A stretch of 64,000 nt of DNA. Origin: Collibacillus ludicampi. GTDB lineage: Bacteria > Bacillota > Bacilli > Tumebacillales > BOQE01. The notes below the pieces were generated by a model. The model made no database searches. It was not told where the DNA came from and was given only the letters and a program-made list of their open reading frames with translations. Positions 15,081-64,000 of the stretch are shown here, piece after piece. The stretch is taken from positions 402,501 through 466,500 of the forward strand of contig NZ_BOQE01000001.1 of NCBI RefSeq assembly GCF_023705585.1, given 5' to 3'. Position 1 is the first letter of the stretch. Each line of letters opens with the position of its first letter. The position numbers were made by a program, and so were the translations under genes.

Positions 15081-15227
15081 TAGCAACACCGCCTTTGCAT
15101 GCTTGCCTTTATCAAGGGTTCTCACGTGTCTTGATATATCTATGATATTTCTATGTAGAATTAAGAACTTTCTGAACCAAAATTTGTGGAGTTGTCGCCA
15201 CATGCCTTCATCTACGGTTACTTTGAA

Positions 15228-15638
15228 AATGAGTGCTTGGGTGGATGTATCGCTTTGCGCTTGGGTTCGGAGAAGGTCGTCTTTGGGGTATATGCTTTAT
15301 ATGCTTTGCGCTCATGCTCCGTGGAGGTCGTCTCGCTCGGAATATGTTTAGTTGTTGCGAGACGACCTCCAAAGTCGCTGTTTCACGCCAAGCATATGCC
15401 CCCTTTAACGTTTCAAAGGAAACGAGACGACCTCCAAGGTCGCTATTACGCGCAAAGCATATGCCCCATATACAACCAATGGTTGCGGAACGACCTTCAA
15501 CTCACCTCTGCGCTGCAAAGCGAAACGATCCACCCAAAAGTCACTCTGTTGATTATGGCAGCTTCAATCTCTCTTTCTGCACAAGAAACTTTTCATCCTC
15601 TGATGGCGCCACTCACTGCATGTGCGGCTACTTGAAAC
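15228..15638 (+). repeat. Nested hairpin repeat, copy A
   Basis: A 410-base non-coding block. Outer arms are GTGGATGTATCGCTTTGCGC (15241-15260) and GCGCTGCAAAGCG.. (15510 on). Inside lies a second hairpin: GGAGGTCGTCTCGC (15322-15335) pairs with GCGAGACGACCTCC (15357-15370), with ATGCTTTGCG arms outside it. A further right arm (15424-15467) has no intact partner, so there are two left and three right arms. The 3' flank with TTTTCATCCTCTGATGGCGCC is shared with the copies at 30.6, 44.4 and 63.9 kb. It fills most of the gap upstream of ccmE. Confidence 0.85.
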
Positions 15639-22417: not shown

Positions 22418-23041
22418 TCACGACATCTCTTTTAACAAAAGAGAAACCTGTCGTTCCGTATATTGTTCCAATGTATAATACCGCCTCAGAAACCAGCGAC
22501 GAAACGCCCACATCTGACCTAATACCGTGATATTATGTGCCATCAATTTTCTCGATCCGTCTTCGATGTTGAGCGAGCCGTCTTTCGCTCCCCGTTCCAG
22601 GATCTTTTCAAAATGGCGCATAATGACTTCTTCTTTCGCCAGCACATAATGCAACATCTCATCCGGCAAACTTTTTGACTCCTGATAGATCAACAAGACG
22701 TAATCTTGCATTTCGTCCATAATTTTGAAGAAGGAGCGAATCGCATGTACGAGCGTGTCACGCCCTGTACGTTGTTCAGCCAATAGGGCTGTCAATTTTT
22801 CCTCCACATCAGTATGAATAAAATCACAGACCAGATACAGGACATCTTCTTTCGACTGAATATATTCATACAATGTACCGATCCCGATACCCGTAGCCCG
22901 GGCAATCTCGCGCGTCGTCGTCTTATGAAACCCTTTTTCAACAAACAGATCGACTGCTGCACGAATGATCTGCCCCCTGCGGAGACGAACCAATCCCTGA
23001 TCCTTGACCAACGTCGGAATCGGCTTACGAGTTTCCCCCAC
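22418..23041 (-). CDS. TetR-family regulator upstream of icmF
   Basis: A 207-residue TetR repressor. The helix-turn-helix is at about residues 20-66 ([42 protein letters not shown]). A ligand domain of the acyl-CoA-binding class follows. The GTG at 23041 has GGAGGGATGTGA upstream. It precedes icmF on the same strand with a 77-base gap, so acyl-CoA-responsive control of the mutase is a reasonable inference. A palindrome in its own leader (23138-23155) is the probable operator. Confidence 0.88.
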
Positions 23042-23055
23042 TCACATCCCTCCTT

Positions 23056-23090
23056 CCTACACTGTCTCACGCAAAGCATGACGCCCGCCA
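23056..23090 (+). repeat. Truncated hairpin-repeat right arm
   Basis: CACTGTCTCACGCAAAGCAT followed by GACGCCCGCCATAA closely matches the right-arm end of the repeat at 44543-44575. No left arm or loop is present. It lies just upstream of the TetR start codon, in its leader. Confidence 0.6.
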
Positions 23091-30570: not shown

Positions 30571-30587
30571 TAGCTACCACGAATATT

Positions 30588-30832
30588 AGTGCTTGGGTGA
30601 ATGGATCGCTTTGCGCTTGGGTTCGGTGAAGGTCGTTCCGCCCGGATTCTTTACAGAGGTTGCGGAACGACCTTCAACTCACCTCAGCGCTGCAAAGCGA
30701 TAACATCCACCCAAAAGCCACTCCGTTGCTTTTGGCAGCTTTAAATCTCTCTTCCCGCACTAGTAACTATTCATCCACTGATGGTGCCGCTTGCGGCATA
30801 GTAAGCCACTTTGAGGATATGTGGTCGAACGT
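30588..30832 (+). repeat. Nested hairpin repeat family, copy B (single unit)
   Basis: The simplest full unit. GAAGGTCGTTCCGC (30627-30640) pairs perfectly with GCGGAACGACCTTC (30661-30674) around a 20-base loop. Outside it ATCGCTTTGCGC pairs with GCGCTGCAAAGCGAT. The 3' flank (about 30711-30832, ending in the GGTGCCGCTTGCGGCAT region) matches copies A, C and D. No T run follows, so it is not a simple terminator. Confidence 0.85.
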
Positions 30833-37138: not shown

Positions 37139-37220
37139 AATTTAATATAGAATATTCGCCACATTTCCATAATTCCCTTCTTTTTATGTGAAGAGATAAA
37201 AAATTTCGAAATCAATCCGC

Positions 37221-37252
37221 ATGCCGCAAACGGCGTCATCTGAAAATGAAAA
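37221..37252 (-). repeat. Truncated end of the hairpin-repeat family
   Basis: ATGCCGCAAACGGCGTCATC followed by TGAAAATGAAAA matches the 3' flank of the repeat family in reverse orientation (compare 63871-63902). Only this flank is left. No hairpin arm follows. Confidence 0.6.
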
Positions 37253-44311: not shown

Positions 44312-44349
44312 ATCCTGTCCTCCCTTCTATCTTGAAAAATGTATAGTTT

Positions 44350-44662
44350 GGCGGGCGTATGCTTTGCGTTCGCGCTCCGTGGAGGTCGTCTCAGTGGGTA
44401 TATGCTTTGCGCTCATGCTCCGTGAAGGTCGTCTCGCATGGAATTATAATCAAATGTTGCGAGACGACCTTCAAAGTCGCTATTACGCGCAAAGCATATA
44501 CCCCCATACCGAAAAGGAAGCGAGACGTCCTCCAAAGTCGCTGTCTCACGCAAAGCATTACGCCCACCCAATGTCACTTTTCATCCTCTGATGGCGCCGC
44601 TTGTGGCATGAAGGGCTATCTTGAAAACTAGTACTTGTGTGGGTGTTTGCGCTTGGGTGCAA
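44350..44662 (+). repeat. Nested hairpin repeat, copy C (unit inside a unit)
   Basis: An outer unit has GGAGGTCGTCTC (44382-44393) pairing, with one mismatch, with GAGACGTCCTCC (44522-44533). Its ATGCTTTGCG/CGCAAAGCAT arms lie further out, and its loop contains a complete second unit. In the inner unit GAAGGTCGTCTCGC (44425-44438) pairs with GCGAGACGACCTTC (44459-44472), flanked by TATGCTTTGCGC/GCGCAAAGCATA. The 3' flank TTTTCATCCTCTGATGGCGCC follows, then part of another left arm. It interrupts the fixB-fixC gap. Confidence 0.88.
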
Positions 44663-63870: not shown

Positions 63871-64000
63871 ATGCCGCAAGCAGCGTCATCAAAGGATGAA
63901 AAGTGTCTTTGGGTGGGCGTAATGCTTTGCGTGAGACAACGACCTTGGAGGTCGTCTTGCAACATTTGTTTATTATTCCATGCAAGACGACCTCCACGGA
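63871..64000 (-). repeat. Nested hairpin repeat family, copy D (reverse, cut by window end)
   Basis: In reverse orientation to copies A-C. The 3' flank comes first (ATGCCGCAAGCAGCGTCATC), then GGCGTAATGCTTTGCGTGAG, then GGAGGTCGTCTTGCA (63947-63961) pairing perfectly with TGCAAGACGACCTCC (63981-63995) around a 19-base loop. The outer arm continues past base 64000. Confidence 0.85.

Follow-up and report, generated by a model that had tools for sequence, protein, structure and literature searches.

Putative gene-less relatives of IS110 insertion sequences with nested palindromes in Collibacillus ludicampi

Insertion sequences of the IS110 family are guided by an RNA, known as bridge RNA in IS621 (PMC11208160) and as seekRNA in ISEc21 and ISEc11 (PMC11187229). 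The short repeats described here share the left-end (LE) and right-end (RE) sequences of one IS110 subgroup, and have in common with the family a TAG-centred core at both ends, a sequence-specific target and the absence of target duplication. In autonomous relatives a DEDD transposase is encoded together with a bridge RNA of two loops; the mini-elements have neither and are 187–450 bp long, with a palindromic interior and a target nearly identical to their own right end. They also resemble prokaryotic MITEs (PMC10969869), such as QMITE1/2 of Coxiella (PMC5896051), being short, non-coding, intergenic, of high copy number, furnished with the ends of an autonomous insertion sequence and presumably mobilised in trans. 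A standard MITE has terminal inverted repeats and target duplications; the mini-elements have neither, as expected of IS110, and are therefore not MITEs in the strict sense. A 2024 review of the prokaryotic examples leaves IS110 unmentioned and lists no MITE derived from it; IS1111 comes up there solely as an insertion sequence that inserts into a MITE (PMC10969869). REP, BIME and REPIN sequences, which are associated with RAYT, are likewise intergenic palindromes found in large numbers and in composite arrangements, but the mini-elements differ from them by their IS110 ends and by residing in a genome with no Y1 transposase. Among the openly available papers examined that deal with IS110 together with MITEs or other non-autonomous elements, we did not find an IS110-derived mini-element described. 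The mini-elements would thus be non-autonomous derivatives in a family in which we found none described, which does not in itself establish priority.

Mini-elements in the window and across the genome

The window analysed here is a 64-kb stretch of the C. ludicampi genome (contig C1, positions 402501–466500). A first-pass annotation had noted four intergenic blocks in it, at 15.2, 30.6, 44.4 and 63.9 kb; the blocks are real and non-random, and they lie at these places. All four contain the motif TTTTCATCCTCTGATGGCGCC, which is expected 0.00 times in the window and occurs four times. They had been credited with one shared design, but the outer stem of the copy at 30.6 kb differs, being the sister stem ATCGCTTTGCG/GCAAAGCGAT instead of ATGCTTTGCG. 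What had been called a common 3' flank proved, when the copies were extended outward, to be one terminus of the element, its left end. Strands are given here in the orientation of the insertion sequence (left end to right end), which is opposite to that of the annotation.

Copy A (15218–15630, minus strand) is a complete putative mini-IS110 of 413 bp, delimited by an end-profile scan and coordinates. Its left end, TAGCCGCACATGC..GGCGCCATCAGAGGATGAAAA, occupies 15590–15630 (minus strand; LE profile score 41.8), and the same left end is found in intact IS110s. The right end, AGCACTCATTTTCAAAGTAA, lies at 15218–15237 (minus strand; RE profile score 30), with the core TAG mutated to TAA. Copy A is a type-1 host with nested type-2-like palindromes and has, as annotated, two left and three right arms; folded as single-stranded DNA, it gave a z-score of −9.9 relative to shuffled sequences. 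Copy B (30574–30808, minus strand), assigned from sequence, end profiles and fold, is a complete type-1 element of 235 bp with one palindrome, and the corresponding z-score was −6.3. Copy C (44327–44618, minus strand), identified from sequence and end profiles, is a complete type-2 element of 291 bp in which a single palindromic unit is nested. Its left end shares a TAG core with what remains of another, tandem element at 44616–44660 (minus strand), the right-end half only (RE profile score 30.9 at 44635; sequence). Copy D, a type-2 element recognised by motif and end profiles, starts at approximately 63870 and runs off the window edge at 64000 (plus strand); the outermost bases of its left end have decayed. 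Two lesser sequences were seen in the window. A shred of about 30 bp of a type-2 arm (GGCGGGCGTCATGCTTTGCGTGAGACAG; 23050–23090) lies just upstream of the gene at 22418–23041, apparently in its leader, and a weak solo left-end-like sequence (CATGCCGCAAACGGCGTCATCTGAAAATGAAAA; 37212–37252, minus strand) has neither hairpin nor right end. The only Rfam families matched over the window were rRNA and tRNA.

The annotation had proposed a search of the genome and its relatives. The motif TTTTCATCCTCTGATGGCGCC occurs 121 times in the 4.09-Mb genome and not once in a reversed control, and other copies retain the hairpin; the family is thus not confined to the window, and neither of the two outcomes named in the annotation as refutations occurred. 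Hairpin bodies were found at 153 loci in the 1.41 Mb of genome examined, 26 of them in the unselected first 464 kb, from which about 220 are expected genome-wide. Outward extension of all copies revealed fixed ends on both sides: in IS orientation, the element begins with TAGYCCCCCATGCCGCAAGCGGCGCCATCAGAGGATGAAAA and finishes with AGCACTAG or ACTACACA followed by TTTTCAAGATAG. A right end was detectable in 99 of 114 copies. Left and right end do not form an inverted repeat, and no copy contains a transposase gene. Lengths fall into discrete classes (18 copies near 187 bp, 25 near 234, 16 near 291, 19 near 340 and 18 at 373–451). There are two host types, type 1 of about 234 bp and type 2 of about 187 bp; the longer classes consist of elements of either type that carry at least one nested palindromic unit in the loop, so the unit nests in both hosts. 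One copy lies close to a run of N (L014, G000:C1:1823905–1826925). No similar DNA was matched in plasmids and phages.

Two full-length copies have the same sequence throughout (100% identity), and the mean identity among type-2 copies is 91%, which argues against great age of the spread. Compensatory changes in the stems are present but few (eight cells in type 1, one in type 2), as expected if the copies are young.

Ends shared with IS110 insertion sequences

The left-end motif was found inside intact insertion sequences of related genomes. One such genome (G006) carries two IS110 copies with 99.8% identity over 1,592 bp that diverge beyond their ends; both contain the motif and encode a 415-residue protein with the domains PF01548 and PF02371. 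Intact copies have the motif within the left end, with the bridge RNA and the DEDD transposase downstream. The right end of the G006 copies is TTTTCAGGATAG, and the right ends of mini-elements and intact IS110s match as TTTTCA(A/G)GATAG. The mini-elements retain about 41 bp of the left end (the terminal TAG core, a GCCGC/GCGGC hairpin and CATCAGAGGATGAAAA) and about 12–20 bp of the right end (TTTTCAAGATAG); between them a palindrome stands in place of the genes for bridge RNA and transposase. They are not autonomous IS110s, having neither a DEDD transposase (PF01548 plus PF02371) nor a bridge RNA with a donor loop matching their own end. The connection of the mini-elements with IS110 is strong.

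Since IS110s often target palindromic repeats (PMC11208160, PMC5896051), the hairpin might be merely a target repeat into which an IS110 inserted, as IS621 does in REPs and IS1111 in the QMITE2 of Coxiella. We regard this as very improbable: the 41-bp motif lies inside the insertion sequences, identical in two copies with differing flanks, and it is shared by mini-elements that have no hairpin interior. High copy number, intergenic location, palindromic form and composite tandem arrangement would also suit REP/REPIN-like palindromes moved by a RAYT (a Y1 tyrosine transposase) or a hairpin element of the IS200/IS605 type. This explanation is less probable still, as Y1_Tnp (PF01797) has no match anywhere in the genome, the element ends match IS110 instead of IS200/IS605, and the motif is absent within 5 kb around the sole TnpB-like gene, on contig C2. 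That gene (G000:C2:83541–83741; L046, L065) is an open frame of 365 aa (Cas12f1-like_TNB) in a genome lacking a Y1 transposase.

Gene-less relatives occur elsewhere. When 84,980 species were scanned once for the left-end motif, the matches listed comprised at least 106 gene-less (mini-type) left ends, the majority of them with a right end nearby, and at least 21 autonomous ones; full IS110s with the motif, again among the matches listed, were from Paenibacillus, Brevibacillus, Cohnella, Aneurinibacillus and others. Another relative (G008) carries a 234-bp mini-element derived from a resident 1,558-bp IS110 by internal deletion and made up of the first ~49 bp of that IS110, an internal piece and its last 98 bp (100%, 90% and 95% identical, respectively). 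Paenibacillus ginsengihumi DSM 21568 has 170 left-end motifs genome-wide, in units of ~76 bp that are often in tandem; Paenibacillus sp. 32O-W has 53 (units of ~64 bp) and an Actinomycetota MAG 10 (units of 63 bp). The shortest gene-less units with this left end measure 60–64 bp. These small elements of ~60–76 bp, with little or no interior, show that this kind of element can do without a hairpin interior. The idea that the repeats were copied as hairpins finds no support in this comparison, in which the interior hairpin falls outside the conserved mobile module.

Two further groups of small elements were seen. P. ginsengihumi has a second family (TAGACGCCTATGACGAGCG..TCGTCATCGGTCGTCACC..TTTTCAAGATAG; L151, L154, L161, L190 and others), whose left end differs but whose right end is the same; its members are interspersed among the 76-bp units. 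Several Desulfosporosinus genomes (L172, L174, L207, L214, L225) have mini-elements of ~375–416 bp that carry the left end described above and have a long interior in common; several of them are inserted beside TTTTCAGAG|TAG, again close to their own right end.

Guide RNA, target choice and movement in trans

Autonomous relatives have a conserved RNA of ~143 nt between left end and gene, with two internal loops in its consensus fold. The target guide of this RNA was compared with the left flank of its own insertion at 23 autonomous loci: 90 of 138 positions matched, whereas 10,000 shuffles gave 50 on average and never more than 71. For the donor loop the match is to the right end of the element itself, with one co-varying case (L159) in which CAAGATAG is present in both. 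By these sequence comparisons, we judge that the autonomous relatives are guided by a bridge RNA, in the same arrangement as in IS621 (PMC11208160). Four near-identical matches to the bridge-RNA model in G008 (L295–L298; 49–51 bits) lie at or near contig ends with no transposase seen nearby, and could be truncated IS110s or mini-elements bearing a bridge RNA.

The mini-elements are inserted beside sites like their own right end, TTTCAAGR|TAG, with no target duplication and with the TAG core shared by both ends. In 32 copies of the C. ludicampi genome that do not abut another, the eight bases before TAG match TTTCAAGA at 4.75 of 8 positions on average; for all TAGs in the sampled genome the figure is 2.25. 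Another 29 copies abut the right end of a neighbour, because the preferred target is the element's own right end; each insertion would provide a further target, and the tandem runs are explained in this way. The sharing of one core by tandem copies agrees with excision as a circle in which right end and left end are joined. A search for reading frames restored at empty sites covered 79 copies and gave nine candidates, none convincing. For the G008 mini-element, same-genus genomes had only one flank conserved and yielded no clean occupied/empty pair.

We propose that the blocks are very probably non-autonomous mini-elements of an IS110-family insertion sequence, spread by an IS110 recombinase with its bridge RNA acting in trans. 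The recombinase and RNA would excise the mini-elements as circles, which would join at sites resembling TTTCAAGR|TAG; a mini-element moved by the recombinase of this group is predicted to insert beside TTTCAAGATAG. Movement in trans is what we infer from the anatomy, the target preference and published biochemistry: in IS621 a 22-bp donor was recombined with bridge RNA in trans (PMC11208160), and cargo flanked by ISEc11 ends was mobilised when transposase and non-coding RNA were provided in trans (PMC11187229), so a system split in this way functions. The earlier suggestion of a palindromic element mobilised in trans thereby gains support from the IS110-shared ends, the sequence-specific target and the lack of an own transposase. 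The ~41 bp over which the left end is conserved go beyond the 22-bp donor sufficient for IS621, which the proposal does not explain.

The partner in this genome would since have been lost or decayed. A covariance model of the bridge RNA, which recovered the copies in G006 and G008, found no match in the window or the C. ludicampi genome, and a 65-codon shred is the only trace there of a transposase of this subgroup. With no bridge RNA of the group and a mere transposase shred, the family is orphaned in C. ludicampi, and present-day movement there would be hypothetical. In G008, the parent IS110 of the 234-bp element is still present.

Other residents were considered as partners and rejected. 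The IS110-type genes of C. ludicampi (G000:C1:2899974, 3982892 and 561945; L051–L053) are of other subgroups and none has the mini-element left end; they are broken by a stop or cut short, one having an in-frame stop, one lying in two frames and one being partial in a family search. The resident IS110 of P. ginsengihumi likewise differs in subgroup and ends from the mini-elements there.

Loss of the partner and the many decayed copies would also fit a family that is immobile now and kept as domesticated structured DNA or RNA, for instance as 3'-end or anti-read-through structures. This is compatible with an IS110 origin, mobility then being history only. We consider it possible though rather unlikely, given the fully identical full-length pair and the mean identity of 91% in type 2, which speak against an ancient spread.

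IS110 recombinases are bridge-RNA tools that are now being engineered for programmable insertion. If mobilisation in trans is the right reading, nature runs a split form of the system, with minimal donor DNA in hundreds of copies and recombinase and guide in trans. The natural donor need would be about 41 bp of left end and 12 bp of right end, down to 60 bp in total, which exceeds the 22-bp donor sufficing for IS621, and self-targeting would be shown, with a target equal to the element's own end and growing arrays. Annotation based on transposases, inverted repeats or target duplications would miss such repeats.

The palindromic interior

Among the genomes seen, only that of C. ludicampi has the long nested palindromes, a local elaboration. 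They grow always inside the loop, both arms together. The nested palindrome was rejected as an independent mobile unit, having been found only inside elements or decayed copies; at 14 of the 153 hairpin-body loci there is no detectable end, and those inspected look like decayed elements.

The long stem with internal loop and terminal loop raises the question of whether the interior acts as a guide RNA in its own right or as an RNA that binds the recombinase, a divergent bridge RNA in cis, the more so as GGTCG/CGACC stems are present also in the bridge RNA of relatives. The element bodies hold no sense CAAGATAG and one CAAGGTAG (at most one mismatch), however, against 8.9 by chance, the bridge-RNA model has no match in window or genome, and mini-elements elsewhere lack any interior. 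A functional RNA in cis therefore seems to us quite improbable. Equally improbable is the reading that the palindromes form a second RNA layer, in which a transcribed hairpin RNA would bind an IS110-type recombinase without a guide match, as a decoy or as a scaffold for guides from elsewhere. If so, mini-IS110s would parasitise or tame RNA-guided transposition.

At one further copy (L030; G000:C1:708589, 708.6 kb), several left arms stand in tandem with a 43-bp period, against fewer right arms, which suggests that this arm tandem arose by slippage or template switching rather than by insertion.
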